A stretch of 64,000 nt of DNA. Source: Agarophyton chilense. Its lineage: Eukaryota; Rhodophyta; Florideophyceae; Gracilariales; Gracilariaceae. Location of the stretch: positions 62,001 to 126,000 of the forward strand of contig JARGXX010000036.1 of NCBI GenBank assembly GCA_030374765.1. Reading direction: 5' to 3'. The translations under genes were made by a program, and so were the position numbers. The stretch's first letter is position 1; each line of letters begins with the position of its first letter. The notes beneath the pieces were generated by a model. It was not told the origin of the DNA. It worked only from the letters and a program-made list of their open reading frames with translations, and ran no database searches. Shown piece after piece: positions 4,716 to 59,188 of this stretch.

Positions 4716-7700
4716 CTACGTAGTGGGGTGAGGATTGCAAAACCCTATAGCCTCAGGAAGCACTGGATTTATTAGTGGAACTGGCATCGGATGTATCGTC
4801 TGTGGATTGTCAGGCGTAAGGCTAGAGTCGTGCAGTAACAACACATGCTTATTCCTTCGCACTCGTGACAGCGCCACATACAGCTGACCTGCACAGAAGA
4901 AATTTGATCGCACATCAACAACTAAACCGTTCAGATTTTTGCTCTGTCCTTTGGGAACTGTCTTCGAATCATAGGAATGTCTGCAAAGGAAAACTCAAAA
5001 TCAATGCGATGCAGCACTTGTGACTCGATTACTTGACCGTTTTCGTTGAACCTTGCCACATGCATCGTAAACTGATCCACACGAACTACGACAAACATTT
5101 TTCATTTACCAACACTGGATGCAGAACGTTTCGAATAACCATCACAGGAACACCAATTTTGAGGCACAGGTTGTGTGGAGGGATACCAGTAGGAGCATAT
5201 TCATAGGCAAACTCAGCCACAATAGTGTCCGAAATATCCGACTCGGCAGTCTGCGCTCGAAGTGGCTGTACTGTAGTTGCGGATTGCAAAGTGATTTGCT
5301 CACCCGGAAAAAGATTCAGGGCAGCAGTATTGTGTTCATCCACCAATTGATTTGTGGATGCAATTATCATTTTGCTGAGATCTACATCTTCTTTGCGCCG
5401 CGTCGTGACCCACTTCCACACAAACGTATATACGGTTTGCATCACTCCAGTAGACTGCAGTGGAGGTGGTATAGTACTCGAGATGGTGTTGCGCGCAACG
5501 GCACGCAAAAAAGCCGCAAACCCCGGATCATCTTCTTGGCGAACTTGTTCTTTGAGATAAAGAACTTGCACAGAGGAATCTGTCCAGAGATTGCTTTTCC
5601 ATGGCAGCTCGTTCAAAATGTTTGTATACACTCTTCGAACGTTCCCACCCGCCTCAGGCTCCATGTACGACTGTGGCACAACAGGAAGCAACTGTGAGTA
5701 GTCGCCGGCGAACACAATAGACAGTCCACCGAAACATGGCGGTTGCGTTTGTGTTTGAGAACTTCGCAAGTCTTTGAGTAGCACGTCCATGAGCTCAAAC
5801 AACCTTCTGGAGAGCATCGAAACCTCGTCAAGTACGAGTAGCTGTAGATTGCGCAAAAGTTCCGCTCGTTGAGACCGAGGACCGTACTTGGACAACAGTG
5901 AAAGTTGTGTAGTAGTACTGTCTTTATCTCCCACACCCAAACCAAGCAGACTGTGCAATGTGCGAACTCCCTCGTAAAGGGATGCAGCGAATCCCGTTGT
6001 AGCTGTCAATTCAACTAGCATTCCTTTTGATTCACATATATCCCGCAACAAATTCAACATATACGTCTTTCCAGTGCCTGCAGATCCTTGTATAAAGAAA
6101 ACGTTTCCAGGAGTGGTCAGACGATCTTGATCGGATTGCTGTCGGAGTTCTAAATCATTCACAATCGTATCCAGAACGTGTTTTTGTGTTGGTTTCAATG
6201 TATTATACCTGGATTGCAGTGTGCTTGCATTTCGCACCACTCTTAATTGGCGAGTGACTACTGCACGATCAGTCTCAGTTTGTTCCTCATTTTGCTGGAT
6301 ATATTGAACAAAGAAGCTATGCTCACGGAGCAAACGACCTCCATGGTGGTCAGATATGCTAATAATTCGTCGATACATTTCCAGCTTTCGCTGTTGTTCA
6401 TCCCCGGCGTGAATATCGCTGCACAGCGCCTCCCAGTGATCAACAACCATTTTCTCTGCATCTGCGCCTTGCTGATACAGCGTAACTACCAACCGCCGCA
6501 GTTCAGATGAAGTGCTGTATATTTAAACTGCCTCTTCAAACGCAATGGCAAACTCTGTACCGTCACTGAGCAGCCCGCTTGCGATCGCTGCTTCCCGAGA
6601 TGTGGAAAGCTGCTGTCCGTCAATGGTCCTCGCATCTTCGTAAGAACTTGAGGCGCGATTCATAAGTAATAAACGCAGTGAGAAAAGCTCTATTTCGGCA
6701 GGAACGACGGCTCGAATTCTGGCGACGCACTGATTCTCTTCTGACCTCTCCACGACATACATCGACGGATCACAATCGTCTCTCGGCACTTGAGTACTGT
6801 CTCCATCAAACTGATTGAGTACACTAGTTGGGAGGGTTTCATACAGGCGCACCTTTTCATAGTAGGAGAGGTAATCAAGACTGGCATATGTCTCAGGTCT
6901 CTGAAAGTACCCTTCCAGTGTTGATGGCTGTAAAGCCGTGTGAATGTCATTAAAGCTGCGAAGAACAAAAGTTCTCTCTCCCTCCAAATGTAATGCAAGT
7001 CGCTCAACAGTGGGCAGAATGGAGACGTGACGAAACTCAAAGATTCGCCAAGCAGCATTCACGGCACCCACCACACGTGCCCGCATGTAGGCACGGATTT
7101 CATTCTGCACCACAGCTGGTTGTTGGGTATCTGTACCCGATTCATTCTGGTTGCTAACATTCAGAGCAACTTCTTGTGCTTTGGGCTGCTTAAAAGCATA
7201 CTTCATGAGGTACGCTACCGCTCCTCCACCCTGCGTGCGCTCTACATTGATGTGTGAGCGGTACTTCTTAGTGAGTGTAGGATTGTATGGCACGATTTTG
7301 AGATCTTCTTCATTTCTTCTTCGGTAAACAACACAGTTTGTTCCTTCTTCGATGTATGTTTCTTGGACAATCATTGTGCTATCGTACCCAAATCGGCAAC
7401 AACCTGCACGATTACGACAATATGAAGAGTGGCGGTTGCGGTGCGTAGATAAAACGAGGGCGCGCAGTTCGTCATCTTCCCCTGGACTTGGTACTTCGGC
7501 TCGAATCAGACTGTCAATGGCATCTACGTCTTCTATTACACCTCCTTCTAACCATAGCAGGATGTGATGGTGCGGTACGTTTCGTTCTTGAAACTCCAGC
7601 TTTGCTGCAAGTCCCAAGCACTTGGACCCAAATAACTGTTCTGAATTCTTTTCGAGGTCTTTCACAATATCGTTGATGTACTGGTTGTAAACTCTGGCAA

Positions 7701-9858
7701 CCAAGTCTGGGCGGTCAAACGGGCGTGGACGATTAGCTGGTGCTGTGAAAGCACTCCGATGAGTCGTATCCATGCCTAAACGCTTCACATCCGCTCGCCA
7801 TACGTTCATTGTGACGGTGATGAATAGCGAAGGGGGTCCTTTTCTTGCCACAATCGCTTTCACATCCTGTCGCTTACTTTTCCAGTACTTAGAAAAGTTC
7901 ACTGAGTCATCAGGAAGCAAAATGCGTCCCATAAGCCTGAATTGCGCGTCAGTCATTCCGCCAGTCGATTGATTTTGCGCTTGAACGATTTCCGTCTCTT
8001 GAACTATGCGTGCTTGCTGCTGCCGTTCTAGTTATTGAAGTCGCATGTCTTCAATGTTCGTTTGTGTGCGAAGCAACCACATTTTCATTAATGGACCACA
8101 ATTAAGCAAAAATTTATCTGAATACAGTCGACGCTTTGCATTTTGTGCCCAAGTAAGCTTCTGAAGATTCCACTGATCGAAACCGAGCCCTGAGCTTTCT
8201 TGCGTACCATTTCGTGCTTGCGGACACAAACGCAGGTCAAACGGTTTATGCTCGTCGCCATACGGGTACAGAAGGGGAAATGTACCTCTCTCTGCTAGCA
8301 TAGAAGACGGTTTCAGCAATTTATACCGCACTCGGGTGTTGCTGTTTGAGTTTACTGCAGCCCCTGCTTGTTCCGTGTCGCCTGTGATAGCTGCGTGTTC
8401 TTCCGTAACTGTGCCCTCAGTCAACTGAGGCACCTGGGCCTCGACATGGTATAGACCGCCTGGATCGACTACGAAGGTTCTCATCATGGATGGTCCAGCT
8501 CCAGGAGCATCTTCGGACATCGGACCTGCACCTACGTTGTCACCAAACACTGTTGCAGTTCTGGTGCCCTCATATCCGCGCATTATCACTCCCTCGTTCG
8601 CAGCTTGCGAGCTTACGTCAACCGTATTTTCTTCTTGTGCCTGCATTTGCTCCGTTGTCAGCATCGCTCGATACCGCTCTCGCACCACATCAGGTTTGGG
8701 CTGAATCACCTCGTAAAGTCTCGGAACCATGTGTTTCACGTTGATGTCTTGGATAAACGCTCGCAGGTTTGCTCGTGTATAGTGAGCAGGATCCAGAGAA
8801 GGAGGCCCTGCGCCCCAAAGAAAACTATACCGCGTGCTGCTCTGTCTGTGTGCCGGGAGAGGGAGTGCTGCAGTTCCTTCTAGTCTGAGAAACGAAGGGC
8901 CACATCCTGTGACATAGGACATGTCCATAAACGCTTGAGTGGTGGCAAAAAGCGTATTCAAGTTTAAGGAGTTCGAGTGGAATGCTCTTGAACGGCATAT
9001 GCTTCGTATTTCTTCATTAGTATGGCGTCTACGAAATGTGACCCCCCATCCTGAATTTCGTTTCATGCCACAACAGACTCCATGTACCTCTTTTCCTAAA
9101 AGCACACACCCACACCACTTGCAACTATGAATTCGTAACGTCCAGTCTTCGTACGGACACGAACCATAGGTGTGTGAAAACTCACCGCATCTTCTGCATC
9201 TGCGGGTTCCTACGGTGGACAACGTCTCAAACTCAGGAATGCTTGCACGAGTGGCTGGATCAATCCATGCTTGAGCAGCATCGGAATCCCATGCGTAGTA
9301 AACGCGATACAATCCACGATCTGGACGTCCGGCAAACAGCATGACGGTCGAATCAAGCTCTTGGAGCGATTGTTGTTCTTCTGAATGAATAGCAAAAGTA
9401 GAAACCTGCTGAAGCTCTGATTCAGCGGATGGTGCGGGAGCTGGAGTGATTTCATCTTCTTCAACTTCCATCGGAGCAGGCATCTCTTTTTCGACATGAG
9501 CCCGAGGATGGTTTTCAGTGGTTCTCGTAGTACTTGGAAGTGATCCACCGATGATTGGAGCTGTAATGATTTCATCTTCGTTCAAATCCGCGACGACGAC
9601 TGGATCTTGCACATGCTGACCAGTTTCGTTTACTTGTACTTCATCTGGAGCATCTTCGACAGTAACCGTTACTCTTTCGGGCCCTTCCACTCCTGCGATT
9701 GTCGCGCCTCTGTTTTCTCCAGAACCTCTTCTTCTTCGTCTCCATCTCACGCCTCCATAGTTTTGTCTCTCTTCTTCTTCTTTATTCATTTTATTTTGAG
9801 CTTGTGCTAGCTCTTCGAATCTACGACAAAGTTTATGTAATATAAAAAACAAACACAA
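4716..9858 (-). pseudogene. Helitron Rep/helicase (RepHel), nearly intact
   Basis: The product nicks and rejoins element DNA (HUH endonuclease) and unwinds it (PIF1-type helicase). A single frame from 9858 to 5086 (about 1,590 codons) is broken only by TAA at 8032-8034 and TAA at 6523-6525. Domain order: an acidic N-terminus; a Cys-rich zinc region (CRRCGEF, CKWCGC, near 9180-9070); the Rep domain with ITVTMN, VPHHHILLW (metal-binding His, near 7570) and YLMKY (catalytic Tyr pair, near 7200); then a SF1 helicase with Walker A GSAGTGKTYML (near 6080), LDEVSML (near 5830) and FAGDYSQLLPV. A frameshift near 5090 and loss of part of the last helicase motifs separate the tail (GQLYVALSRVR, 4900-4860). 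The true start may be the Met at 9789. Only two stops in 4.8 kb suggest a fairly young copy. Confidence 0.85.
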
Positions 9859-24300: not shown

Positions 24301-26111
24301 GTTATTCCAGGCGAAAGCGCCTTTACAATACATCAGTATCGACATCCTAGAGGAATTGTTTCGCTCAAGGCGAGGTTATCGCTACCTATTGGTAATCACC
24401 GACCGCTTCTCGAAGCTAGTGCGGACTGTGCCTCTGAAGTGGATAACCGCAGCCGTAATCGCACAGGCGTTTATCAAACACTGGGTTTTTATATACGGAC
24501 CACCAGAAGTTCTGTTATCAGATAATGGGAAGCAATTCGTTGCAAAGTTGTTTCAGAATGTTTGCCGCATTATGGGCATTCCAAACGTGTTTACCACGAC
24601 CTATCATCCGCAATGCAACGGTCAGGTGGAGCGTTTCAACCGCACGCTGATAGCAGCATTACGAAACTACATCGCGGACCACCCGAAAGAATGAGACATG
24701 TTTACTGATACCCTGTGCTACTCGTACAATACGCAAGTGCATACCTCTACAAAGACGGCACCGTTCGACCTCGTGCTCTCACGTAACCCTCCAGCTTTAC
24801 CGGTTGCGCTCGACCACGAGACAGAATTGGACGCGCCGACCCCGGCTAAATACCATCTGAAATGGAGGAATGACCTGAAGGCCAGAGCGGAAGAAGCCGC
24901 TAAGGAGTTATCAAAGACGCAAGCTCGCTATAAGCGAAACTATGACGCCAGAAGGCGAAGAGGAAATCCGGCAATCCGAGTAGGAGGTCCCGTCTTCGTG
25001 CGAGTTGAAAGACCGGACAAACGGGAAGAATCTCGTCGTAAGTTGTTGCCGATAGCGGCTGGACCCTTCAAAGTGGTGGACCTTGATGAAGACACAGTGG
25101 TCATCAAGACAGGTGAGGACGTTGAACGTGTATCGCGCAATCGCGTTGAAGTCGCGCCTGATCCGCAAGTGGAAGTCCAGGTATCTGGTAGAACTAAGGA
25201 GGCAAGTGCGATGGAACGTCAAGGCAGAAACCCAAGTGACTCTGGGGAGAGTGAACCGCCACCAATGGCTCGAGCGGAGGAGAAAGCTCCTGATCTCCCG
25301 CCGCCGGCGGTTGCGTACGCCAATCACGGACAGCTTTCCGAAATATCGGGATATGCCCCGTGGCACGCGCACACCCGTCAGTACAGAAATGGAACCTGAA
25401 AACAGGAAAGATGTTTTGGAGTTTGACCCCAAGGACTTGGAAACGAGTGCACGCGAAAACGCGCCTTTGCCGCTTCAGGCTGAACCGTCAGGTGAAGCGC
25501 CACTCGCTGTTCCGCCGATATCGGCTCCCATCCCTCGTGGGCAGGAAGAAGAAGAGGTATCGTCTCCTGTTGTGGTGCAAGCTCCATCGTCCACCGAACA
25601 GCGGTCAGAATCGGATAAACCGAGGGAAGTTCATCCACGAATAGAATTGAGAAGTAGCAAGAGGTACGCTTCTATGGAACCTGGAAAACAGGATAGCTCT
25701 TTATCTGAGAAAGGTTCTCAAGGAATGAGTACACTGCCCCTGCGGGCAGAACAACATTTAGTCGACGAGCGAACGCTTTGCGACGCTGAGACTGCTAACA
25801 CAGAGACGCTTGGGTCAGCCTTAAGGCATTTCAATCCTGTTAACAGGAGTCTCGCGCCAACAGCGAAAGCATTGGGAAACGTCCAGGAATATGATAAGGA
25901 TCGCATATGTGAACATGGCGAGCATGAAGATACTAGAGAATTACTGTATCGAGTCCGTTGGTACGGTTTTCCTCCGGAAGCGGATACGTGGGAGCCTATA
26001 GCTCATATCCCCCATTCGCAGCTCGTGCAATATCATCGACGCATGCGATTACCACTCCCAACGGAGATCGACTCCTCGATAGTCGGGCTCATGGGCAGAT
26101 CCCATTTCTAA
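21370..26111 (+). pseudogene. Gypsy-1 Pol: protease, RT, RNase H, integrase, chromodomain
   Basis: Domains in order: aspartic protease (LDTGAGPNFI, near 21600); reverse transcriptase (VYLDDVIIF, near 22970); RNase H (DTDSSEYQVG near 23420, and DHSSLRWLL); integrase with H2C2 zinc site (HLAHCSRLSGHPGG ... LCTTCAKN, 24130-24260), DDE residues in SIDILEE, LLSDNGKQF and QVERFNRTL; and a C-terminal chromodomain (RICEHGEHEDTRELLYRVRW, 25900-26050). Chromodomains can steer integration to marked chromatin. Breaks: TAG 21955, frameshifts near 22640 and 22915, TAA 23315, TAA 24074, TGA 24692 and a frameshift near 25390. The catalytic YLDD is intact. No clear ATG opens the frame, so Gag-Pol expression probably used a frameshift or readthrough. 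Confidence 0.9.
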
Positions 26112-32479: not shown

Positions 32480-35400
32480 ATGGAGGACGCCACGTCTTCT
32501 TCTCTGACCGCCAGGACTGCTCGCACTGCAGGCCCTAGGGTCAATCGTTTCACCATGGCTGCCGAGCAGCCGTTCCTCGCCCGCATGGACCCGGGGTCTA
32601 TCCGCGTGTTTCTCCGCAAGTACGACGCGTACTGTCGCGAACTGACCGCAAGGACTTCGCAGTTCGTCCAAGAGGGGACAGTCTCGCTCGACCCCATCCG
32701 TCCTGTTGGTCTGACCTACTGTGTCGACGCCGAACAGCTCGGGTCCGCCGTGGACTGTGGCTAGATTGCCGACTGCGACGACGTCAAGACCTTAACGGAC
32801 GACCAGTTACGGACCTTTTTGGACGCCGAGTCCGAGGAGTCGAGTGACGCTGTCACGGAAGAGGAACTCGGCCAAATGGTCCTGTCCCTCATCAAGATGG
32901 ACATGTCTGTCAAGTCCACGGAGGGTCGAATGAAACTCCTGTTCATGGAGTACCGCTCGCTCCTCCGGACCAATGGCCTCAAATGGGTCATCGAGAACAA
33001 CCCCAAGGCGGCCATCCGGCACGTCCTTTCGGTCATCAAGCCTCAGCAACTCACTAGTAGGCTGGAGCAGGACATCAAGTTCTCAAAGACCAAGCTCAAG
33101 AGCGACTTCAGTGGCTTTCAGGCGCACGCCATCGGACTATCGCAGGCCTTCGAGCGCCTCAACACGGGCCCCAGAAGTCTCGCAAGTCTGAAGGGAGCTC
33201 CGGAAAGACCACAACGGAATACAAGAAGTCGGCCGCCGGCAATGACATCAAGGCCGGCGGCAAGACCAAAAAGGACAAAGTAAAGACGAAGCACCAGCCG
33301 CCTTCTCCGTGTCCGCTACCGGCCTGTGATGGCAAGAAGCTCATGCATTGGGCCGATGACTGCGAGAACTCAACGGACGCAGAGAAAAAGGCCCTCAAGA
33401 ACATAGTTGCCGCCTCAAAGTCTCGTGATGGCCCAGCGAGGTCGACGCGTTCCCAGACCTCGTCGGCAGGGGCCGCTCCATCGTCTGCATCCAAGACCGT
33501 CGGACGCTTGCAGCGCAAGTCCGACGCGTCCGCACGCGACAACGACTCGCCGTCGTGGAAGATGATCATTATGGACGGCAAGGCTTCCCAAGATGTGACG
33601 GGACGCTGTGACGACGGCAGCGACGAGAATATCGCGTCGTCCAAACTGGCCGTCCATGCTGTGGGCCAAGGTATCGGCAAGATCGACCACATCGACACGG
33701 AGCGAGTCAAAGTCGCGCTGACCAAAGAGGACGAAGCGCCAACGTACACGTTCTCGCGTGCTTGGTCTGTGCCTGTCACGGTCTTACACCTCAACTCCGG
33801 TCGTCTTGCTCTCAAGAATATCCGCTTCCTTGTGGCGGATGACAACGTGACCTGTGAGGACTTGCTGATTGGCCCACCGGTACTGCGCCATCTGCGCGTG
33901 GATACGAAGACCCTACTGGAGGACACCATCACGTCCCTCGACGGGACGGATTGCAGTCCAGATGGACCACCGGGGACCAATGGTGGGCAAGTTAGTCGGA
34001 TTATGATTGCCCGACTCAACCGCGTGCGCGACGACCACGTGAACTCTTCCGCCCCGCTCGACCCGGCGCGCCCCAAGGACAACTACTACAGCGCACGCGC
34101 TGAAGAGAATCCGTTCCCGGATCCGTCCTTGCTAGAACCTATCGATGGGGACCAGCACGAGGACATCAAAACCGCAGTGGACGACATGAAGACAGTCGCC
34201 CAAGACAACGGACTGCCGGAAGAAGACCTCCCAACATTGGAAACGCTGCTTGCTGACCATATGGGCATATTCCGCACGTCATTCTCCTCGAGGCCTCCTG
34301 CTGTAATCCCCGCGCTCAAGGTTGCTCTGACCCGCGACGCCAAGCCCGTCAAGGTCCGTCTGCGCAACTATTCGCAAGACCAAAGAGACTTCATAGACAA
34401 GTTCTCCAAGGACCTCTTCCACCATGGTCTGGCGTACGCGAACCCAACGTCCAAATGGGCCTGCGCGCCGCTCCTTGTGGCGAAGCCAGGCGCCCGCTTC
34501 CGCTTTACAGTGAACCTGTGTTCGGTCAACAAGTTCACCGTCCGGCATCAGTACCCGATGCCGAATCTGGAGCACGAGCTGACCAAACTGGGCACGTCGA
34601 GATATTTCGCGACCTTCGACCTCTCGCACGGCTATTGGCAGCTGCCATTATCCGAAGAGTCACAGGAGTGCCAGTCATTCATCACACCAGACGGCATTTT
34701 CTCCCCGACGCGTGTCCTCCACGGGACGACCAATGCAGTGACTCATCTGCAATCCGCCTTCGTGGGTATCATACCCGCTGACCTCAAGGCCAACATGTTG
34801 TCCTGGTTGGACGATATCCTCATTCATGCACAAACCGTTTCCGGCCTGCTGAAGTCCATTCGGTCATTCTTTGTGGTCTGTGCGGACCACAATATCAAGC
34901 TCCACCCGGCGAAATGCATCCTATTCGCCAAGGAGATACGCTGGTGTGGCAGTCTCGTGTCCAGTTCTGGTCTTCGCTACGATCCGCACCGCCTCGACGG
35001 CCTGCTGTCCATGCAGCCGCCGACCACTGGGGCCAACCTGCAGCAGTTCGTCTGCTCCATACAGTGGGTCAAGCAGGGCATCCCAAGCTTCTCCGAACTC
35101 GTGGCACCGCTGCACGACTTCATGGAACGCATGTTTGACCATGTGGCCAAGCGCACGAAGAGCGCAGTTGCTCGTGTCCTATTCGTAGACCTAGGATGGG
35201 ACAAGACCGAATTGGACGCCTTCGAAGCATGCAAGAACGCTCTCGCGCGTCAGGTCACGCTCGCGCACCGCGACGTCGGCCAACGCTTGTGCGTCTACAA
35301 CGATGCGTCCGATACGGCCTGGTCTGGGATTGTGCCCCAAGTCCCCTTCCCGGACATCGTCAAGCCCCACAAGTACCAACGGCATTCGCCGTTGGCGTTC

Positions 35401-37239
35401 TTCTCGGGACGCTTCAACAAAACCCAGATCGGTTGGTCCGTCCTCGAGAAGGAAGCGTACGCCGTCCTGACCTCTTTGGACCGAATGCACTGGATCGTCG
35501 CGATGCCTGAAGGATTCGACCTCTACACCAACCATAACAACCTCATCTTCCTATTCGACCCGCTGTCGGTGGTCCCCGACATGTCGCAGACGTTGCTGCG
35601 CAAAGTCCTACGTTGGGCCGTGCGGCTGAGCATGTACCGCTACACATGCTACCACATCAAGGGCGACGACAACGTCTGGGCCGATCTTCTGACCCGATGG
35701 TTTACGGTTCCGGCCACTGTGCGCCGCCTCGTGCGCATCCCGGAGCTTCCCTCGTCGTCCAGCACGGACTTCGACTGGCCTACACGGACTACACTCGCCA
35801 AGGTTCAGCAGGTGCACGATGCATCACGCCCTGCGGACCTCGTCCTCAATGACCAACTTTGGACTCTTCCTTCTGGTTCCATCTGGGTCCCGGATGACGC
35901 CGCTGACATCCAGCTCCGGTTGTGCATCATCGCCCATACTGGACCTTCGGGTCATTGCGGCGTTAGCGCCACGGATCAGGCGCTCCTCAAGTCCTTACAT
36001 TGATTTGCGCTCAAGGCGGACGTTTGCGCCTTCGTCCGTGCTTGTATCCACTGTCTGTCGACAGTCGGAGGGGAGAAAATCCAACGTCCTTTCGGCCCGA
36101 CCGTCCACGGCACGAAAGCGAACGACCTGCTCTAGTTCGACTACATCGAGCTCGGAGCCACAGCGCACGGCGACAAGTACGCACTCATGTTGCGTGACGA
36201 CCATTCGGACTACAAGTGGTTCTTCCCGTTCCCTGACACCTCCGCCGAGAACGCCGCCACTGCCATCATCGAGTGGTGTGCCGCTTTCGGCGTCCCTAAT
36301 GGTCTCATGTCCGATGAACCCACTCAATTCAAGAATGAGACTGTCCGTTTGGTCTGAAAGGTTCTCAAGGTGCCGCACCACTTCACCATTCCCTACTGTC
36401 CGTGGAGCAACGGGGCAGTAGAGCGTCTGGGTCGCGAGTTGCTTCGCGTCCTAAGGTCGGTCCTTTCGGAGCTTTTGATGCGCACGACCGAATGGCCTGA
36501 CCTCATCCCCATCGTCCAATCGGTCCTCAACAATTCCCCCTCTCCGCAGAGTGGGAATGTGTGTCCGATCACGGACTTCATGGGCAAAGAACCGACGCGA
36601 CCGGTTCAGACCTTCATGCGAACATCACTGTCCACACCGGTCACGTTGACAGAGGCGCAAGCGGAACGCACCCTCAACGTACAGAAGCTCATCGAGCTCC
36701 GAGACGAGCTTCATCCGCTCGTACAGTCCAATTTGGGCAAACATCACAAGCAAGCAAGAGCCGCTGCGTCGCGTGCAAAACACCCTCACTTCACTGAGGG
36801 TGACTACGTCCTCGTGGCCCGCACCGAATATGGTGCTGGAGACAAGCTCTTCCTTCGCTGGCGCGGTCCTGGCAGGGTCATCAAGGCGCTTAGTGACTAC
36901 GTTTATCAAGTTGAAGACCTCCGGAATGGCCAAATGGATGACGTACACTCGACGCGTCTCAAGTTCTACGGCCACGACGCGATTGACGAGGCAGCCATTC
37001 TGTCTCATGTCCTACAGTCCGTGTCGGGCATGCCTGTCGCCCGCCTAATGGGGCTCGAGGACAGTCCCGATGGTGTCAAGGTCCACGTCCGCTGGAAGGG
37101 AATGGATAACTCCGAGGACACTGTCGAGCCGCTTGAACGTGTGTTCGAAGACGTCCCGATGATGGTCGAGTGCCTACTTAAGCGCAAGGTCACCCCAGCC
37201 CATCTGGTCCAGAAGGCCAGCGCTCTCCTTTCTATTTGA
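32480..37239 (+). pseudogene. Gypsy-2 Gag-Pol, four stops and one frame change
   Basis: Gag starts at the ATG at 32480. A +1-type frame change near 33180 leads into Pol, and the gag frame itself ends at 33283, so this could be programmed frameshifting or a mutation. The nucleocapsid zinc motif CPLPAC-X6-H-X4-C lies at 33308-33362. Next come a protease-like region, RT (FDLSHGYWQLPL near 34620, LSWLDDILIH near 34800), RNase H (NDASDTAWSG near 35310), integrase (zinc part near 35930-36050, FDYIELG, MSDEPTQF, WSNGAVERLG) and a chromodomain (VHVRWKGMDNSEDTVEPLE, near 37085-37140). Stops are TAG 32762, TGA 36001, TAG 36133 and TGA 36355, and three of them cluster in integrase. The 886-codon frame 33343-36003 is uninterrupted. 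Confidence 0.9.
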
Positions 37240-37769: not shown

Positions 37770-39686
37770 CTTCGAGTCATAAGGTGACACCCACCATCTA
37801 TACAAGATTTATCAAAACTTGGTTGGCGCGCAGAGAGCCAATCTATCTCTGGTAGAAGGAGATTGGCGATTTAGGCTTTGGTTTATTTTTATTAAATTGA
37901 GTGCATTTGGAGTGTGCATGCACTGCATGGTAAATTTCAATTCTTATAATGTTGTGAACCACATAACTTTAAAAAACCACTAAGATTCTACCTCAAGCTA
38001 CTATAATTCTATTGTTTCAATATACAATAATCTACTAGAATGCTACTGGTGCCGTAACAATGTTTTCCCTAAAAGCAGTTTAAAGGAACCTCCAAAAGTA
38101 GTCATTACACCACTGTGACCAGTGGAACGGTGGGAATGCCGAGTCTCTGAGCGGGAGGAATTCCGATGGAAACGTTGGTTTTGCGCATACCGCACCACGT
38201 AAAGGTGATGATGCGCTGCATCGTATAGTGAACCGTGGACGTCTCAATATTGACCCGCTTCCGAGAAAGTAGTGGAACACCAACTGACGTGTGCTGGTTC
38301 AGTAAAGGAGAAATTATGGGATGCTGCTTTGAAATATCCTTTGTGTGCTGGAGTACAATGGTGTAATAATTTGGGAATAGTGGTTAGATATAAAGGAAGA
38401 CTGGTGCGAATAATCGATTTGATGGTCCCTTACAAACGAAAGTAGTGGTTTTCAAGGGAATGCACTGGTGCGGTACATCCGAAAACACCTGTGTGTGCGT
38501 CAGGTACTGTGGTTTCATATTATAAGGAATCAATAGAATCCCTTCACTGCGCTACACCCAATTCTGTGTACATTGGTGCCCTACAACAGCACGCAACCAC
38601 TGCGCTTGCCAATGGTGCAGGAACCCACAAAAAACCAAAACAGCCTTACAGAGAATTGAGATCCACACCTCATGCACAGAACATGTCGTCCTTTCATCTA
38701 TCCTAAATGCGAAGGGTATCCATCCATCCTCGTCAGTACCTTGTACGTTCCACCATTCACGGCTGTGGTACCGTACTTGGCTGTGCGTTCTTCTCTCACG
38801 AATCGCATCCATTGTCACACGCATGAAGGAAACCCAGGCGGAGCATAACCAATCCAAATCTCAAGAGCTTAATTTTACTTGGCGACCATGTGGTGCCGGT
38901 CGGACCTCTTACCACACGCTTCACAAAATCAAAAACCACATCGTCATAGTCCTTAGCAATCCCAAGTACTACAAATACTTGCTGTATGCCTTCTTCGTCA
39001 TCCCCTGTACATACCACAATATATTCGGCCACGTTTTCCTCTACAATAGATGATATTGGGTCGCCCTCTTTAATGGTGTGGTTAGCATACGGGCACCGTC
39101 GCCCACCCTATTTATCCCCTGATACGTATCTCGCCCGGTGGAACATTACGATGTGATGTCCCTCTTTTCCTTGAGTTCCTGGAATTTCGCCCTCCCGCAT
39201 TTGCATTCTTTAAGAGAGAAGTGCAGCCCAGTTCTGCGCTCGGTCTCGAATAACTTCCTCTCATTCGATGCTTTGTCCTCGTGGAAGATTAACTTGCCCA
39301 CAGTTCCGCAGTATCGTCATGATCGGTTCTTGAAAGCTCTCTCGCATATTCAACCTGAAATTTTGCAGCATTTGAGCTGCAATTCTAGCCGTGTCGTCCA
39401 ATTCGATTGCATAAATCCCCAATAGTCTCCTTTGCAGCTTGTCTCGGCACATTCCCTTGGCATTTTTTCTCCCGTCGAACGACAAGAGTAGATTGTATGC
39501 AGCAACGCTAACCAGTCTCGAGCAATGGCTCTCTGCACTTTCTTGAGGTGCGAGTTGTGAAGCGTATTCCCTTCTAGCCAGTGATTAAATTCTCTGTGAA
39601 CTATCTCCAAAACCATTTCGGAGCTGTTCCGGGCATTTGAAAATTTTGGAATAGTTGGGACGCACATTTCAAGGGCTTGATGGGAG
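37770..39686. other. Unassigned region left of the piggyBac-like element
   Basis: The first part (38040-38520) has many AGTGGT and CTGGTGC motifs in both orientations. The second part (39261-39736) has a minus-strand open frame with EIVHREFNHWLEGN and RAIARDWLALLHTIY, which looks protein-like but unknown and is cut by the transposon. No other gene is evident. Confidence 0.35.
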
Positions 39687-39711
39687 TTGGGCATATCCCT
39701 AATACTTGCAG

Positions 39712-39782
39712 TGTACGATACATCGTACATTAGCAAAAAATCAGAAATGTAGAAAAACAGCTAATGTACGGTGTATCGTAAA
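39712..39782. repeat. Left pair of terminal palindromes
   Basis: The first, at 39712-39729, is a perfect 8-bp-arm palindrome (TGTACGAT-AC-ATCGTACA). The second, at 39765-39782, is imperfect. Start-to-start spacing is 53 bases. They are likely transposase-binding sites. Confidence 0.8.
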
Positions 39783-40024
39783 TTAGTTCCTGTTTTGGGA
39801 ACTTCTTTGAATCATCGCAGCTCTTAAAGGGTGAATTAGAGAGCGATTATGTTCACACCATCTTGAGGAGGAGGCTCTTCTTTACTGTCCACGTGTTAAA
39901 CTAAGCTTAAATCCACAAATTTTGCATTCCAGCGTTCTATCCCTCCTCAGGACCCCTGCGGCACCTCCGAAAGACCACCAAGCCCTCAGAACATTCCTGT
40001 ACTCATCAAAAATACCTAGAAATC

Positions 40025-43000
40025 ATGGCTACTGTCGATATCGCACCAGAAGTAGAGCATAAGGAGGCTAATGACCTGCAGAGCACCCTCGTCGCGGCCA
40101 CGGACGCCACGCGTCCAAAACAGCCTCGTACAGAACTTCGGGGAAGACGTCGTCCCCGTGGTAGTGGAAGGGGACGCCTTCGGGGTCGGAGAGCCTCCCG
40201 CACCCAGTCCTTGTCTGGGACCAAAACATCCGACGGATGGAAACTTAAGCAAGTGGCAGGAGAAAAAGTCCGGATGGACAATGATTTTGTATCTGAAGCC
40301 CTGTCACAGCGTGCAAGATTATTCTGTCGCGCAGCTATCGATCGCCTTGATACCGAATTAAGCGTTCGTCGTCTCTGCCATGCGCGCTCAAGCTATGTCG
40401 TGCTGTTTATGCAGGAGGTTCTTCAACGCTGTTTAGTTTGGCTCAATGAAAAGGGTGTAATGGCTGACACTGGAATAGACCCATTCACGGTTCCTGACTT
40501 ATTTCGCTTCGTGGCTGTCTTTATGTTTTGACAGTGTTCGGGGTTTAGCTTATCAAAAAGTATTAACCTGCTGCAGAAGATGGACTGCCCTGTACCTTTT
40601 CTCGACCTCGTCCGCTACATTTCCACAAATATCTTGGCTTACTCAGCTACCGGACGCGGAGAAAATGGCGAAGCCGTTTGGAACTCCTAGCGGGATCAGA
40701 CTGTGCGTTTAAATGAGTTCGAACGAGCAGCATACCGAATGTCTAGCAGAGTTTTTCTTTCTCCTGCGCATACGTTTGCGACGTTAGATGATGATCTTCA
40801 TGGAACCCGGGCAGTGGACAACCAAGTTAAGCTTCTAAGTTCCCGAAAAGCTGACAAAGAGGGACATTGCGTTGATGCAGTGGCCGACGCTCTCTTTCGA
40901 ATCACTTTATTCGTTCGGTTTCAGCGAAGAGGGGAATCGCAGTCCCTAAATGTGGAGAAACTTATGGAAAATTTACTGGAAATGAGGGGTGAACAGTCGC
41001 TAACGGGTCTAATCGTCACAGCAGACCGCGGTTATGGTAAGTTCAGTATGGTTCCAAGTCTTGCTAAGAAAGGAATCGGCTTTATTTTCATCATGCCTGA
41101 GCATCTCCTGAAAGCCCACCCTTTTGTCGGCATTTCACATTTCATTCCTGCGAGAGAGGATCTAGAGGAAGAGGAATCAGGGTCTGTACAGGGAGATCTC
41201 ATTAATGAACCAGAAGTTAGGGTTGATCCCGACATCTATGACAGAGATGCGGGATTCCTGATTGACGATAGCCCTGAGAAAGGACCGCTCAGCAGGTATG
41301 CAGAAAAGGTGTTTAAAGATGAGCAGTCCGGGCAGCGACAGACTTTTACATCCGTCATGATAAGAGAACGCGGCTCGAAGAAGTTTGCAAAAGTACTACG
41401 GTTTGCTTATTTACTCCCGAATGGCTTGGCAGATCTTGTTAAGTGCTGGATTGCTGTTCCCCGCTCTCAAAGCAATCGCAAATTTTTATTCAGCAAACGC
41501 ACCAACGACGAGAAGCTATTCATACCACAGAGTGATGCAACAGACGACAGGGATACTGTGGAGCTTCACTGCCATGCTCATTGCCGCATTTTAACAGTGG
41601 GACAACGGTGTGCCGACTGGTTCATTCTAAGGCAGTTTAGAATTACTGGAACTACGGCAGGGGCAACGTTATTGGCAGATGCAAACTTCAGATCAGATCT
41701 TAACTTGCCGCCGCCCGGGTCTCCGCATGAGGACACAATGTCTAAGAAAATGAAGAGGTTAGGTGCTTCTTGGTTTAGTTCAGCTAGACCTAATGAAAAT
41801 ATGATGAGAGGAACGTGTAATGAGCAGGCAGTCCTTAATGCTCTTTCCAAAAAACCCTTCGTTCTTAGCATACATGAGTGTGGAATGCTAGCCGATAAAC
41901 AGCACAGCTGGCTGGCCTGTTCTGCAGATGGAATTGCCCGAATCGACTTGGCACAAACTTCTTTTGCGAGCGCCATTGGCGGAGAGGACAATGTGGCACT
42001 TGTTACCGTGGAGATCAAGACGAGTGTAGCCTCGTCGTCCTGAAACAGAGCTTTAAAAAATGTTAGTCTGGATTGAGCATGCGTGAAGGTTGGGGATGCT
42101 TCCGTGCTACAACGCATTCCCCAAGAACACATCGGACAGGTACCGCAGAAGATGTTTATCATCAATACAAACTACAGCATTTATGCAGTCAGCTCCGAGA
42201 CGGCTCTACTTTCTTGTACTCTACTGTATGCCTCTAACGATAAGGTTCAGGCATACAAGGATTGCCTAGTATCTCAAGCTGGACCACTCGTTACATGGGC
42301 GCACACAGACACTCCTGTTGTCCCTTCCTTCGTCGACGTCACCACGAAGCGTTTAGTGAAAGAACGGATGGGGTTTTGGAAACTTATCAATACTCACGTC
42401 ACCAACCACGATGCATTTGTACCTTTAAAACTGTTCAAACACGGAATTCAAGGCATGTATTCGAAAACTAAGGGTGGTGTGGACGGCAGCGCACAGGCAC
42501 GGGCCATTTTAAGAAGTGCCACAACAAAGCTAAAATGGGAGCAGAAAGTTGTTGGCCAAACGCTTAAAACACTCTTCGTGAATTTCTTTTTGGCCTGGAG
42601 GATCATGGAAAAGGATGCCTTGGTGGATGATTTTAAAACCTTTCACAACTTGAGTGCGTTTCGACATGAGCTAAATACTCTTGGTTCACTAGCAGATTTT
42701 TCCGCAGATGCATGTACAGAACTATTAAGATACGCCATTGTTATGTAACTACAGACTGGAATGAAGTATGATGCCTCACAGAGCATTCCCAAAAGTATTA
42801 TCGGGGAGGAGGCCTCTATGTTACGACAAATGGCAAGAAAAAAGCAGAGATACAGACTTCAATTCTTTAATTTTAGTAACGGCACGAAACTTCGCTTAAA
42901 TGTTCCTGGGCATGATCAGAAGCAGCTGCGTGTCGAGAAATGGTGTGCTCTTTGCGGCATGAAGAGAAAAGGCACCCAAGGGTTTAGAGGTCATCGGACA

Positions 43001-43261
43001 TGCTTTCAATGCTGTAACTGTGATGTACTTCTTTGTGTGAGAACATTTCCGGGTTCCCGGCGCTCGTGCTTGGATATTTGGCACTCGAACAGGCGCCTAG
43101 AAGCTAGGCGGCTGTCACGCTCGCCACGGATAACGCCAGAGCCTAGTGGTGGAGGAAATGAAGGTATAAGTGCGTCATCTTCTGACGGTCCGAGTCGTAA
43201 ACGACGTCGTAGCACCGAGTCCGAGCCACGATCTCTACGATCTCGTCTTCGTAGTACCTAG
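40025..43261 (+). pseudogene. piggyBac-like transposase with embedded YqaJ-type nuclease domain
   Basis: One frame of 1,079 codons runs from the ATG at 40025 to TAG at 43261, with stops at 40529 (TGA), 40688 (TAG), 42041 (TGA), 42074 (TGA) and 42746 (TAA). The N-terminus is basic (RGRRRPRGSGRGRLRGRR). The piggyBac DDD core has LDDDLHGTRAVDNQ (near 40785), VTADRGYGK (near 41015) and TKGGVDGSAQ (near 42470). The C-terminal Cys/His domain (WCALCGMK ... CCNCDVLLC ... WH, 42940-43085) is the piggyBac zinc motif. Between the second and third Asp lie FRITGTTAG, RGTCNEQA, CSADGIA and VEIKT, the order of catalytic motifs in YqaJ/lambda-exonuclease PD-(D/E)XK nucleases (41630-42200). A basic tail (RKRRRS) may be a nuclear signal. 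The fusion is in one frame. Function of the nuclease is inferred. Confidence 0.8.
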
Positions 43262-43307
43262 AAATTAGGATAGTCCTACTTTAAACGTTGTTTTGTTGTT
43301 GTTCTAA

Positions 43308-43531
43308 TGTACGGTGCATCGTACATAAAGCAATTTTGCCTCTGTTTGAGGTGACGTGAAACCCATTTTTCCCCATACAAAATGACAGGGATCCCGACCA
43401 CCATTTAGTTTCAAACTTTTCACATCTTCTTCTGACATACTCCATACCATCCCTGTCACCTTGAAAGTTTCCCCAAAAATTCACGAACGCAACTACAACC
43501 ACGTAAACATTAATGTACGATACACCGTACA
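43308..43531. repeat. Right pair of terminal palindromes
   Basis: Copies at 43308-43325 and 43514-43531 match the left ones with one or two changes. Start-to-start spacing is 206 bases, wider than at the left end. Confidence 0.8.
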
Positions 43532-43558
43532 TTACTGAAAATATTAGGGATATGTTGG

Positions 43559-52539: not shown

Positions 52540-54846
52540 TTGAACGGACCACTGGAACGAAGAAATATCCGGGTTCTTACCTTTGGTTTAATTCCCCAAC
52601 GGACCAGAAGTACAGAAGCAAACGCCATTATGGATGCAGGAAACGCACCCAACCGACCGAACCATAGGACTCATACGGCAGGACGAAGTGTAACTACAAC
52701 GCCGGCGATGTCGCCTGACCCTCAGGTTCATACCGCTAGTGACTGCAGTAGCACAAGGAGCCAGCCGCAAGAAGTACTGACCCCACTGGATAACTCTGAA
52801 AGAATTCGCCGAAAACCCACGGTGGCAGCGCGTTTACGAGTCCGCTCACCAAGTCCACCTCTAGGCCAGGGACACCTTAAGGAGAAAACCCCCAAGACCG
52901 AAGGAATTCAAGAAAACTTACCCGCAGGTCTTGCTGACCTTCTCTGGCCCCGTCTCCGTGAGCTCTGCTCAACCCACGTGGATTCCATTATAAACGTGCG
53001 ACTCGCTACGGCGATCGTTGACCATTCGGATTACCGCATCGCGCGAATCGTCCCTAAGGTATTGGAGTATGACTTATTCATAGACTCCCTCCTACAGGCC
53101 GTTCGAGAAGCTGTCACACGCCAGGCAGGCAATTTGGTCCCTAGGACTATCCCACCACAAAGTAACCATCCGGCCTCCATATGGCAGCCCCCTACCGAAC
53201 TCCCAGGAGCGGCGGAACTATTCGCCCCTCGACGGGAATACCATCAGGATAACCCCATGGTGCGCCAATCTATAAGCAGATGAGAAGCTCCGCGTGTAGA
53301 TGAGACACAGGTTGCCCATCAAATGAATCCAAGGGCGGGACAACCCAGATGCAGAAGAGAAGCTCGGCGTCTAGAAGGGAGACCGCTGGCCCCACCCGAC
53401 AGATGATACGAGGTACAGCGACCTTAGGGCTCCCTCGGATCTGATAGATGGATTTATCCTTTAGATCCCTCCTCCGCTGGAAAGAAGAAAAGAAGTAACC
53501 GCAAGAGATAGAAGCAAAGAACGATTAAGAGAAGAGACCATTGGGACATGAATGATTCTGACTCGACCTCAACCGAAACGACTGACTCGCAAGTGGATGA
53601 GGTTGCCGTTCGAGGCCTCCCACAACTGAAAACCACAAACAAACTATTCCTTAAGGTTCTACACTATCGGAATCACCGGCTGGCCGACATGTCTGCAATA
53701 TATTCTGGTTCGATGGCTCGTAGAATCGCCAAATGGGCCAGACGGATGGAACTAACCATTACGGACAAGTTCTCGTGTTCCGATCCCATTGCTGTTCTTA
53801 GGTTTCTCAGTTTGTTCCGTACGGCCTGCGATCAGAACTGTGCCCAGGAGGGTGCCACTCTGTACCTCTCCCAATTCTTCCTTACAGGACAGGCGCGTGA
53901 CCGAGTGGTTTCGAAGATATCTGGCACAACTGACCTCTTGATTTCTCAAGAACGTAAGCTCCTCAGGTCATACGCTCAGGTTGTTCATTACCTCTTGGAA
54001 ACTTACGCCACGGATGATGTTATAATGGATGCCCACCAGGAAGTAATATCCTTTAGGCAGAGCTCCAAAATGACCGAATCGGCTTTTGCAGAAGATCTAT
54101 GGAAGAAGGCTCACCGATGTGGAAACGTGTTCTCCGAAGAACGGCTTAAACGACACTTCATCAAGGGGTTGCTCCCTGCCATTCAGACAAATGTGCGCAA
54201 TTACCACACGGAAAACCCGCAATACTCCTTCCAAAGGGTCGTTACCTACGCCAAAGATTATGGTAAAATCTACAGAACCTCCATGTGCAACGCTGATATA
54301 AGCAGGGGAAATGCAACTCCAATGCGTAAACCCAACCAAGCCCATTTGGTTAGCTCCACGGAGTCAGACATGGATGCTTCACTCCATTACGCCGATTCGG
54401 GAGACGTCTTTGCGGTCAATTTCAGTGCTCCTCCGTCCCGGCCCCCATCTTACACCTCCCAGGGAGCTACAGCGACCACTGGACCACCCAAATCTAAGTA
54501 TTTTCCCTTTCCGCCCCGCAAGGACGTTTTTATTCGCTCCCGAGGTCCCTGCTTCCTCTGCCTTTCACTGACCCAACCTTGTGACTGTGCGAGGCATCTT
54601 CCTGAGAACGCACGAAAAACCCTCCTAGCCCTAAGGCAAGAGAATAAACGGGTGCGGAGATCCGAAGGAATGCATAACAGGGCACAGCAACGAACCAAAG
54701 GGACCCCTAGAAGCTCACGCTATGCCACGCGTCCGGACACTCCGATCAAAGCCCCACAGGTCCACGTCATTGTAGATCCTAGGGACGAACCCGTGGAAGA
54801 ACCCTATCTTCAGGAAAAAACGGAAACGCCATCGGAAAACTCCTAG
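52540..54846 (+). pseudogene. Gypsy-3 Gag, four in-frame stops
   Basis: One frame of about 768 codons is interrupted by stops at 53281, 53407, 53428 and 53506, with no shift. The N-terminal third is Thr/Ser/Pro-rich and basic. The middle (53680-54290) is the capsid-like region (SQFFLTGQARDRVVSKISG, RLKRHFIKGLLPAIQTNV) and is also found decayed at 31760-32080 and 37561-37760. The C-terminus has a Cys-rich motif (CFLCLSLTQPCDCARH, near 54550) in place of a standard zinc knuckle, which is unusual. The ORF opens without an ATG at 52540. The downstream part from the ATG at 53548 is uninterrupted. Confidence 0.82.
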
Positions 54847-54896: not shown

Positions 54897-57800
54897 TTGG
54901 ACGGTCATGAGCCAAAGAGCTTCTCATCTCCCAATACAAGCCACCCACAATGGACCACTCAGGATGAACCACAATTGGAACACAGTAACGACCCTGTCTG
55001 TATCCTCAGGAAAGAGAACTATCATGTTCGAGTAACCGTAGGACTTCGTTCCAACAACTCTCGAGTGACCAAAGCTGTATTGGACACAGGCGCTGTTCCC
55101 AAAATGGTTCATCTTAAGCTGCTCCCACTGGGTTGGCAAGATTTCATTCAGGCAAGGAAGACCCCAAGAATTACCGATGCGTCTCGTAGACCAATGGACA
55201 TTAAATGGATAAAACCACTTTACCTCCAGGCACGACAATTCAAAGTCCGCTCCTTGTACGTCCTAACTTAGGCACTGAAGCAATCCTAGGGACCTTCTTT
55301 ATTGACCGATATATTAGGGCCATTCATCCAGGCCTTAGGAAAGTCGCGTTTTACCGCGCACCTTCCATCTCCATAACTGGTTCACCCCGAGGGCCAGAAG
55401 CGAACCACAAACGAGCGGTTGTCTCAGAAAACACGAAGTCTAATATGGTTTGCCTGTCAAAGTCCATAACGATACCCCCGATGACCCAAATCTCTGTATC
55501 GATCCATTCCCAGTCTTCATATCTCGTAATGATTCAGAACCCCCCGAAAACGGTTCTGAAGCACCTTACCTTGATGACCAATGGAGTAATGGACATCCAC
55601 CCCAACAGGTCCTTTTTGGTCACAATCAGCAACTTCCGAGATAAACCCGTCCGGTCACCTAAAGTGACAGTGATTGGTATCACTCTACCCGCGCCCGTGG
55701 TCATTATGGAGGCCCAAATGGATAATCTTGCGACGCCAACTCCCGACTAGGACGTCGACTCTTGGGAAGAGACGGCCGCCATCGGCGAAGAATTTGAATC
55801 CTATAGGCCCCAGGTACTTGATCTCCTCAAGGAAACACAGGCCATGTGGTCAAGTAAATTGGGCACAATCAGAGCCACTACACACCGTATTGACCTTCAG
55901 GATGATGCTAGACCACAGCTTCAGCACCCATACCGCACCGGCCTTAAAGGTAGGGAAATTGTTGCCGACTAGATGGAAAAGATGCGCAAAGCTCAAGTCA
56001 TAGAGCCGGTGCCTCCAAAACAGTCTGAATGGGCAATTCCCCTTACCCTCGTGGCGAAGAAAGATGGCTCCGTCAGGTTCTGTGTCGACTACAGGAAGCT
56101 GAACGCAGTAACCAAGAGGGACTCATACCCGATACCCCGCAAGGACGACTGTCTGGATTCCTTAGGCGAATCTATCGTATTTACCACACTGGACGCTAAC
56201 TCTGGATACTGGCAAATCCCTTTGGCCGAAGACGCGAGAGCGCTTACAACCTTTACAACCCATGTAGATCCGTTCAGATTTACTCGCATGCCCTTTGCTT
56301 TGAAGAATGCACCAGCCACTTTCAAACGGGTAATGGACATTATACTGTCCAGAGTCATATGAAAGTTCGCCCTGGTCTATTTGGATGAAGTTATAATCTT
56401 CTCACGGACCGTAAAAGAGCACTTTCGCCACGTGACGAAGATGCTAACAATCCTACTGGACGCTGGAGAAACACTGAAGCTCCGCAAATGCGCTTTCTTC
56501 CAGGCCTCAGTGGACTATCTCGGTCACGTCGTCCTTCCAGGAAAGCGAAAGGTGGCCACACGGACAACGAATGCGATTCGCCAGGCTAAGCCTCCTAGGA
56601 CCCATACAGAACTACAATCCTTCGTGGGCTTTTGCAATGTTTACCTACGGTTCGTCGAAAGGGTTGCCAAGATCTCGGCCCCTCTAAACGCGAAGCTGAA
56701 GAAGGGAACACCTTCGGAGTTCGAAGCCCTTACAGACGACCAGTACGATGCATTTCAGACCCTAAAGGAGAAATTGCTGAATCCACCCATATTGGCCTTA
56801 CCAAAGCCCAATAGATCTTCCGTCCTGGACACAGATGCCTCTGATGTCCAAGTGGGTTGTGAACTGCTTCAGGAACAGGAGTCACCGAAGGACTATCGAC
56901 CTATTGGCTACTGGAGCAGAACGCTCACCAGCGCGGGGCGAAACTACAGTACGACCGAAAATGAATGTATAGCCATCGTATGGTCCGTATTGACACTCCG
57001 TCCGTACCTCGAGGGAACCAGGTTTACCATTAGGACAGACCATGATTCACTCCGCTGGTTACTCAATATGGCCGATGCTTCGAGTCGCCTGGCTAGGTGG
57101 CACTTCAGACTGTCAGAATAAGACTGCTAGATATCCTCTAGGCCAGGCATCAAGCACCGGGCAGCAGATGCTCTACCGCGAGTCATAACCGACGGATCTG
57201 ATGACACTCCATTGGACGACCTAATTCCTACCCCCTTTACGGACGATTTACCTCAGGGCTATACGGAAACAGATAACCTTTTGGGTAAGGTGCAATCGGA
57301 GGATCCTGAGGTAAATGAGAAATAAGTATACCTATTGGACTGGAAAACAGTACCGCCCGATTCGGTACCACCTCAGGTTCACGCGATAGCCTTGGAGGAA
57401 AAAGAACTCCTCCCTATAACTATTGAGGAACTCCTACAGGCGCAGATCGAAGACGAATACTGCAAGGAAACAGCCCAATTGGTAGGAACCCCAGGATGCC
57501 TGTTCGACTATGACCGATTTGGACTACTATGTCGCCGCTTTCCGCTGGATGGCGCACTCCAACGGGTAATGCCAACTTCGCTAAGGGCGCGAGTCCTATA
57601 CCTCGCCCATTCCTCCCGCTTGGTTGGTCATACTGGAGGCCGACGAATGTACCAGACCCTAAAGATGTTCTTGTACTGGTCACTCATGGCGCAGGACCTA
57701 TGGCAAACCGCATGGAACTGTGCATCGTGCGCACAGATCCGAGCGTCTCGCACCAACCATCAGGCAAAATTGAAGCTCTTCCCCGCCTCAGGTCCGATAG

Positions 57801-59188
57801 AATTTGCGGCAATGGATATACTTGGGTCTTTACCTAAGTCGTCCCATGGGAAACAGTTTGTTTTGGTTATAACCGATAGGTTTTCCAAACTTACCCGAGC
57901 CGTACCCCTAGAAAAGACAACGGGCACGGATGTCGCCACGGCCTTCTTGTCCCACCGGTTATATCCATATGGCATGCCACTCTACCTCCTTACGGATAAC
58001 GGCAGCCAGTTTTTATCCAAATTTTTCTCACACGTTTGTGCGACCTTAGGTATCAAACATGTGAACACTACGGCGCACCACCCACAAACCAGTGGCCAAA
58101 CCGAACGCTTCAACCGCACCCTTCTGGACCGATTCGCGCAGTACGTTTCGGAGCACCAATTAGACTGGGACGACTACGTTGAGCCATTGGTTTATGTTTA
58201 CAACACGCAGGTGCACGCTTCCACGTGGACAACACCTTTCGACTTAAGGCTGACGAGAGCGGCGCTGCCGATAGCTGTTGACCTTCAGGAGTTCATTATA
58301 CCCCAGGACATAGTCGAAGGGATGACTCCGACCCAGGCGAAGCGCTACTCGCGCCGACGCATTGACCGCATCCTCCAATCGGCCAGAACTGTACTAACCA
58401 AAGCCCAGCGGCGCTACAAGTGCAATTTCGACAAAGCCGTTTGGAACACACAGACCTTTGGGAAGGGAGATCTGGTTTACCTGGACCGGCCACGGAAGGA
58501 CAGTGAGGAATTCGGGGACACTACGCCGAAGCTCTTACCTCGCTCTACGGGACCATAAAAAGTCCTTAAGGCCAATGATCACGCCATTACTTTACTCATT
58601 GACGGCCTACAGGACACTGTGTCTATTGACCGCGTAACACGAGCTCCCAGTTCCTCCGGACCAAGAACGTCCCAGCCCCCTGGCCCAACGGTAGCACCAA
58701 GACCTCATGTCGACACTCAAGTCTCCACACCCCTTAGGGCAGTTTCCGAGGACTCGACTTGCCCCACGGACACGATGGTCAAGGCCAACTACTATGACCC
58801 ATCGCTCCCAACTGAATCCGATGGAATCGCACCTCTGGACCACACTGTCCTTCCGGAGGATGAACACCAACAGGAATATGTGATTGAGCGCATAATTTCC
58901 GCCGTTATGGAAGAAGATGGAACTATGCGCTATCGCGTCCGTTGGTTCTGCTACACACCTGAGGAAGATACTTGGAAAGAGCCTCCAACTATTCCTGCTA
59001 ATTTTATCGCCCTCTATTGGCGCAAAACCAGCCACTCGGAGGACGGCATTCAGGAGGGGGCAACCATTGGTCCGATTAATCCTAAAACGCCTCCGAAACC
59101 GCCTCCCGACACGACGGTTCGCCGGAGCACGACTGTTCGTCGTAGCTCCCGCATCAAGGAACAAAGTCAGTCCTTCGGAGACGCCTGA
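54897..59188 (+). pseudogene. Gypsy-3 Pol: protease to chromodomain, seven stops
   Basis: The protease (VLDTGAVPKMVH, near 55080) sits in its own frame. From 55205 one frame runs to 59188 with stops at 55748, 55970, 56360, 57119, 57128, 57323 and 58556 and no shift. RT has DANSGYWQIPL (near 56200), but the catalytic YxDD box reads YLDEVIIF (56378-56400), so the second Asp is Glu. RNase H has LDTDASDVQVG (near 56830). Integrase shows HSSRLVGHTGG ... CASC, MDILGSLP, LLTDNGSQF and GQTERFNRTL (57600-58120). The chromodomain is EYVIERI ... MRYRVRWF ... EEDTWKEP (58875-59000). The domain order matches Gypsy-1. Confidence 0.88.

Follow-up and report, generated by a model that had tools for sequence, protein, structure and literature searches.

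Nucleases of the PD-(D/E)XK type occur beside DDE transposases in other systems. In Tn7, the nuclease TnsA makes or completes the second-strand cut beside the transposase TnsB; TnsA belongs to another, endonuclease branch and is a separate subunit or terminal fusion, whereas the element described here carries an internal domain of exonuclease type. Lambda exonuclease, LHK-Exo, and RecE (1avq, 3sm4, 3syy, and 3h4r) are stand-alone recombination exonucleases, while here such a domain lies within a transposase. DNA transposons with a lambda-exonuclease-type nuclease are already known, and both known cases share this feature with the red-algal element. In ISL2EU, a YqaJ exonuclease is encoded by an open reading frame (ORF) of its own, and passages of the source state its function as unknown (PMC4482050). 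As these passages describe it, that ORF neighbours a PHIS-group DDE transposase that bears THAP/HTH, whereas intact homologues of the red-algal element have a single ORF. KolobokE, according to passages of PMC9587614, pairs its transposase with a PD-(D/E)XK nuclease resembling lambda exonuclease. That nuclease lies downstream from the transposase domain rather than between Asp 2 and Asp 3, and Kolobok is another superfamily, with 5'-RR ends and TTAA instead of 5'-CCC ends and ATAT (PMC9587614, in part). For piggyBac itself, passages of PMC7351741 describe attack by the 3'-OH four nucleotides into the flank, resolution of a hairpin that leaves a four-nucleotide flap on the element, and an insertion domain that acts in hairpin and target binding. 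Its excision is seamless, and genome engineering makes wide use of it (PMC7351741, in part).

The window (the whole 64-kb stretch of Agarophyton chilense DNA analysed) contains a piggyBac-related transposase that differs from the piggyBac superfamily (Trichoplusia ni piggyBac, 6x67; piggyBat, 9c0f) in having a lambda-exonuclease-type nuclease between Asp 2 and Asp 3 and in the duplication of ATAT instead of TTAA; sequence similarity is weak. The protein-coding features are as follows.

40025 to 43261, + strand: transposase-nuclease frame with five in-frame stops
40307 to 41167, + strand: helical DNA-binding region and initial section of the RNase H-like domain (alignment columns; piggyBac fold match)
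41288 to 41461, + strand: beta strands (residues 422 to 479) that seem to be the ordinary small insertion domain (model secondary structure compared with passages of PMC7351741)
41576 to 42379, + strand: lambda-exonuclease/YqaJ-type nuclease domain (residues 518 to 785; model and alignment)
42425 to 42784, + strand: closing section of the RNase H-like domain, which contains Asp 3 (codon at 42482), together with the second helical-domain half
42944 to 43084, + strand: C-terminal Cys/His domain, limits approximate, resembling the piggyBac cysteine-rich domain

The original prediction described one continuous frame. Its motifs do share one phase and keep the order described, but the frame is interrupted by stops at 40529 to 40531, 40688 to 40690, 42041 to 42043, 42074 to 42076, and 42746 to 42748. 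Asp 1 and Asp 2 have their codons at 40787 and 41024, and the nuclease residues Trp, Arg, Glu, Asp, Glu, and Lys have codons that start at 41618, 41630, 41822, 41927, 42011, and 42017, respectively.

Structure prediction gave a piggyBac-like fold with a lambda-exonuclease-type domain inside. In both of two structure models the nuclease fold is nested within the transposase fold; the DDD catalytic triad sits in an RNase H-like fold resembling that of piggyBac, in agreement with the alignment, and the nuclease domain has the lambda-exonuclease fold together with the PD-(D/E)XK residues (lambda E85, D119, E129, and K131). The proposed position of a YqaJ-like nuclease between Asp 2 and Asp 3 was thus borne out by the models, the alignment, and the conserved residues. 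We rejected the explanation that the segment is solely an ordinary piggyBac insertion domain, since the models give a nuclease fold. In our own reading, the strands at 41288 to 41461 seem to be the ordinary insertion domain, retained next to the nuclease.

We scored conservation in an alignment of 30 rows (A2; proteins 33 to 50% identical), with gaps excluded from the counts and nuclease positions assigned to lambda residues by motif. In the transposase, Asp 1 is present in 28 of 28 sequences, Asp 2 in 28 of 29, and Asp 3 in 27 of 27. The nuclease residues are similarly constant: Glu (lambda E85) in 26/27, Asp (D119) in 27/27, Glu (E129) in 28/28, and Lys (K131) in 27/28. The positions equivalent to lambda Trp24 (W24) and Arg28 (R28), which contact the 5' phosphate according to passages of PMC7496540, are conserved in 28/28 each. 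The window copy retains all of the scored catalytic and 5'-phosphate residues; it differs by SADG for SPDG, and a Lys replaces one conserved Gln. Conservation of the catalytic residues and of the 5'-phosphate pocket speaks for a 5' exonuclease directed at DNA ends. Both active sites would be functional, with a 5' polarity that we infer from the pocket.

Two alternative roles bear on these residues. The nuclease could make or complete the second-strand cut, as TnsA does, and so replace the hairpin route of piggyBac; the two systems are alike in pairing a PD-(D/E)XK nuclease with a DDE transposase. We regard this as unlikely. A conserved PD-(D/E)XK site in the polypeptide that holds the ends is compatible with it, as is the involvement of the piggyBac insertion domain in hairpin and target binding described in passages of PMC7351741, but the domain belongs to the exonuclease branch, has retained the Trp and Arg that bind the 5' phosphate, and in the models still appears to have the beta insertion strands beside it. 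Alternatively, the domain could be purely architectural, or provide additional DNA binding as part of an enlarged insertion domain that no longer cuts. In DDE/D transposases, the insertion domains found at the same topological place bind DNA (PMC7351741, in part), and the window subfamily has changed SPDG to SADG. Against this stand the catalytic Glu, Asp, Glu, and Lys, near-invariant over 27 to 28 sequences, and we consider such a role quite unlikely.

We searched the host genome (79.8 Mb in 135 contigs) with the open middle piece of the frame and obtained at least 123 matches (94 of the 119 candidates scored). When matches less than 6 kb apart were merged, these fell into at least 66 places: 48 contain both parts, 9 the transposase part alone, and 9 the nuclease part alone. 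The nuclease segment is present in 21 of 21 copies, namely the window copy and 20 fetched loci that were picked from hits to a nuclease-containing query, are thus biased towards having it, and come from outside the nine transposase-only places. The same 21 copies have the first transposase half in 20 cases, the Asp 3 region in 19, and the C-terminal domain in 18. In all 18 copies with both transposase halves, the nuclease lies between them, in order. Pfam DDE_Tnp_1_7 matches the host genome 119 times, and 4 of 4 Pfam YqaJ matches lie inside copies of the transposase-nuclease family. Three loci of other subfamilies, L032, L033, and L035, keep ATATCCCTA at their tips, with very different sequence just inside that has its own short repeats.

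Outside the host, 29 proteins matched at an E value of ≤0.01, and 33 with a family profile, the last of which (P0044; E = 8.6e-5) is an ordinary piggyBac protein without YqaJ. Several homologues are uninterrupted proteins of 1,031 to 1,301 amino acids with all parts in one ORF; the named homologues belong to two red algae, Gracilariopsis chorda and Chondrus crispus. Intact copies are thus present outside the host; those host copies that were translated are interrupted. A transcript-derived protein, P0049 (GEZJ01006395.1), is 95% identical to the window frame over 409 amino acids. It begins at an internal Met and its final residues differ from the window frame, so it indicates transcription of some copy in that source and not an intact copy. 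A nuclease profile found 60 proteins, the last five of which (E = 1.7e-4 to 0.35; 25 to 31% identical) carry Pfam YqaJ and appear to be the only clear outsiders. Among 42 stretches of viral contigs that matched a pattern, none encodes a relative. One homologue, P0032, has an extra C-terminal tail at residues 1158 to 1202 that matches Znf_SCAND3 (E = 4.7e-6; 26.9 bits against a cut-off of 27), and P0010 ends in a similar tail.

Pairwise distances of the first transposase half and of the nuclease are correlated (r = 0.82; alignment A4, using 26 of 30 rows after four with short segments were dropped), a value reached by none of 2,000 permutations. These correlated distances indicate that the two parts were inherited together. 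The architecture and its conservation in uninterrupted homologues, like this joint inheritance, are established at the level of sequence. We rejected nesting by chance, or an artefact from a single rearranged copy, which hardly deserves credence: the window copy is dead and, taken by itself, scores under the Pfam cut-off, but the nuclease is shared by every host copy examined and by the uninterrupted outside homologues, and is inherited jointly with the transposase. The nuclease might instead attack competing DNA of other elements or viruses, as a weapon or as help to the host. The recombination exonucleases of phages include YqaJ and RecE-like enzymes, and the host genome is rich in other mobile elements. 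We nevertheless find this very unlikely, since the nuclease is fused within the catalytic fold and inherited with the transposase, which points to a transposition step.

Selection was estimated at two depths. Close copies within one subfamily gave dN/dS values of 0.56 to 1.99 (14 transposase pairs) and 0.35 to 1.09 (20 nuclease pairs), and host copies within subfamilies thus decay almost neutrally. Among diverged host copies, for which synonymous sites are mostly saturated, the median pN/pS was 0.48 for the transposase, 0.57 for the nuclease, and 0.42 for the Asp 3 region. Median dN/dS, calculated from finite-dS pairs only, was 0.87 (21 of 176 pairs), 0.26 (48 of 190), and 0.23 (26 of 153), respectively. 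The ratios among diverged copies give mild and uneven support for selection.

The relationship to piggyBac was examined at the level of profiles. Pfam DDE_Tnp_1_7 matched 7 of 30 members at an E value of ≤1, the best (8.2e-7) above the cut-off; it was not reported for the window copy, whose own Pfam scores were under the cut-off. The Cys/His pattern is present in intact members, with weak zf-Tnp_2 matches in 4 of 30. In a pairwise protein comparison, only the Cys/His end aligned with an ordinary piggyBac, at 95.9%. When the transposase segment and the Cys/His segment were compared by local hhalign with a small and rough ordinary-piggyBac profile, the result was not significant, though the motif order agrees; the nuclease profile against a single lambda exonuclease gave 28.6% probability over 22 columns. 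The RecE-like exonuclease family matched 13 of 13 tested nuclease segments, in support of the nuclease assignment.

Compared with host copies that are about 96% identical and retain the end, the window copy is homologous from 39690-39693 to 43553-43555, and its outermost bases read ATAT-CCCTAATA ... TATTAGGG-ATAT. From these limits and bases we conclude that the unit is a 3,853-bp transposon between two ATAT tetranucleotides, with the following features.

39697 to 43549, + strand: whole transposon copy, 3,853 bp excluding the flanking ATAT (homology limits and end sequences)
39693 to 39696, no strand: left ATAT, target-site duplication (sequence; the duplication is shown through the L022 empty sites and not the window copy)
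43550 to 43553, no strand: right ATAT, target-site duplication (sequence)
39697 to 39712, + strand: left terminal inverted repeat, CCCTAATA..., matching the right one at 14 of 16 bases (sequence)
43534 to 43549, - strand: right terminal inverted repeat (sequence)
39712 to 39729, no strand: palindromic subterminal repeat 1 (pattern search)
39765 to 39782, no strand: palindromic subterminal repeat 2, one mismatch (pattern search)
43308 to 43325, no strand: palindromic subterminal repeat 3 (pattern search)
43514 to 43531, no strand: palindromic subterminal repeat 4 (pattern search)

The pattern TGTACGRTRYRYCGTACA, with up to two mismatches, has four sites in the 64-kb window, two close to each end of the element (8 matches on both strands against 0.03 expected). 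The 1.2 kb to the left of the element (38493 to 39692) is 74% identical to L051, with shorter matches elsewhere, and the element apparently sits in or beside a dispersed repeat.

Seven copies of clearly different subfamilies have ATAT-CCCTA at both ends and share no flanking bases beyond ATAT. An eighth copy with both ends, L024, has one base changed after the left ATAT; in the remaining 13 sequences, one or both ends were missed with the pattern used. When the flanks of L022 were joined, 38 other places matched across the junction (40 rows, 2 of which are its own flanks), and two of these, the empty sites in L041 and L043, contain a single ATAT. The joined flanks of L032 gave six other places that cross the junction, at the level of matches and not base by base. 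For the window copy, none of 11 other matches crossed the junction; no empty site was found for L033 or L035, or for L025, whose 20 other matches involve the left flank only. That flank resembles one end of a repeat that occurs as a pair 4 kb apart. The target-site duplication is ATAT, directly for one copy (L022) and consistently in others. Because ATAT and not TTAA is duplicated, we call the element piggyBac-related, not canonical piggyBac; of the piggyBac features, the DDD RNase H-like fold and the C-terminal Cys/His domain stand, and the TTAA target does not. L022 lies in the ATAT of a palindrome, TGGCCTCATATGAGGCCA, near the end of the host's ordinary piggyBac-type repeats, and, with the L041 and L043 sites, is apparently a case of one transposon within another's subterminal repeat.

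The window contains other mobile elements. On the - strand, 5089 to 9858 holds three consecutive open stretches, two of which match Helitron_like_N (E = 1.4e-21) and PIF1 helicase (1.4e-36), and is a predicted Helitron-type element. On the + strand, a 980-amino-acid open stretch at 33061 to 36000 has the reverse transcriptase and RNase H matches of a retrotransposon, and chromodomain, weak gag, and integrase core matches at 25056 to 26108, 53512 to 54843, and 57326 to 58555 are further retrotransposon parts.

In our preferred model, to which we give about an even chance, this red-algal piggyBac-related transposon encodes one protein with two active sites, and the nuclease processes the 5'-phosphorylated ends that the transposase makes. 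This agrees with the resecting or trimming role suggested in the original prediction, which the analysis supports. The DDD RNase H-like site, with the helical DNA-binding and C-terminal Cys/His domains, would cut and join transposon ends at ATAT, and the site of lambda-exonuclease type, inserted in the catalytic fold downstream of the beta insertion domain, would trim or digest 5'-phosphorylated DNA ends. Digestion may act on the 5' ends at the cut donor site, whose resection would lead to homologous repair and a restored copy, or the nuclease may remove short 5' flaps on the excised element. Resection of the donor break would favor homologous repair and copy gain over seamless closure. We counted in favor of 5'-end processing the nested folds, the residue conservation, the RecE-like matches, the nuclease in every copy examined, the r of 0.82, the empty-site ATAT, the palindromes, and the transcript-derived protein. 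Against it we counted the interrupted window and translated host copies, the near-neutral decay within subfamilies, the weak local hhalign, the alignment limited to the Cys/His end, and ATAT not being the piggyBac target. Also counted against it is that lambda exonuclease functions as a trimeric ring (PMC7496540, in part), which a transposase complex may be unable to form. A more far-reaching reading, possible but doubtful, is a transposase lineage with its own end-resection enzyme in the catalytic domain, in which a single complex would both cut and resect, and donor breaks would be directed to homologous repair that adds copies.

As far as searched, a piggyBac-type transposase with a nuclease inside its catalytic domain and an ATAT target is new. 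The original prediction knew of no standard piggyBac with an exonuclease at that position, and the literature searched yielded no such report. Passages of the papers naming both piggyBac and YqaJ describe no such element (one paper was judged by its title), and among the matches listed from the red-algal, YqaJ-transposase, and lambda exonuclease-like literature no such title appears; Repbase and subscription journals were outside reach. If the more far-reaching reading is true, this would be the third setting, after KolobokE and ISL2EU, in which eukaryotic DNA transposons captured a lambda-exonuclease-type nuclease, and three captures would point to a general, little-studied step served by such nucleases. 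A piggyBac relative with an end-directed exonuclease and an ATAT target would offer a way to ask what recurrent transposon nucleases do. It would also open the questions of whether such nucleases change donor-site repair and copy number, and of how a DDE/D insertion site can accept a whole second enzyme.
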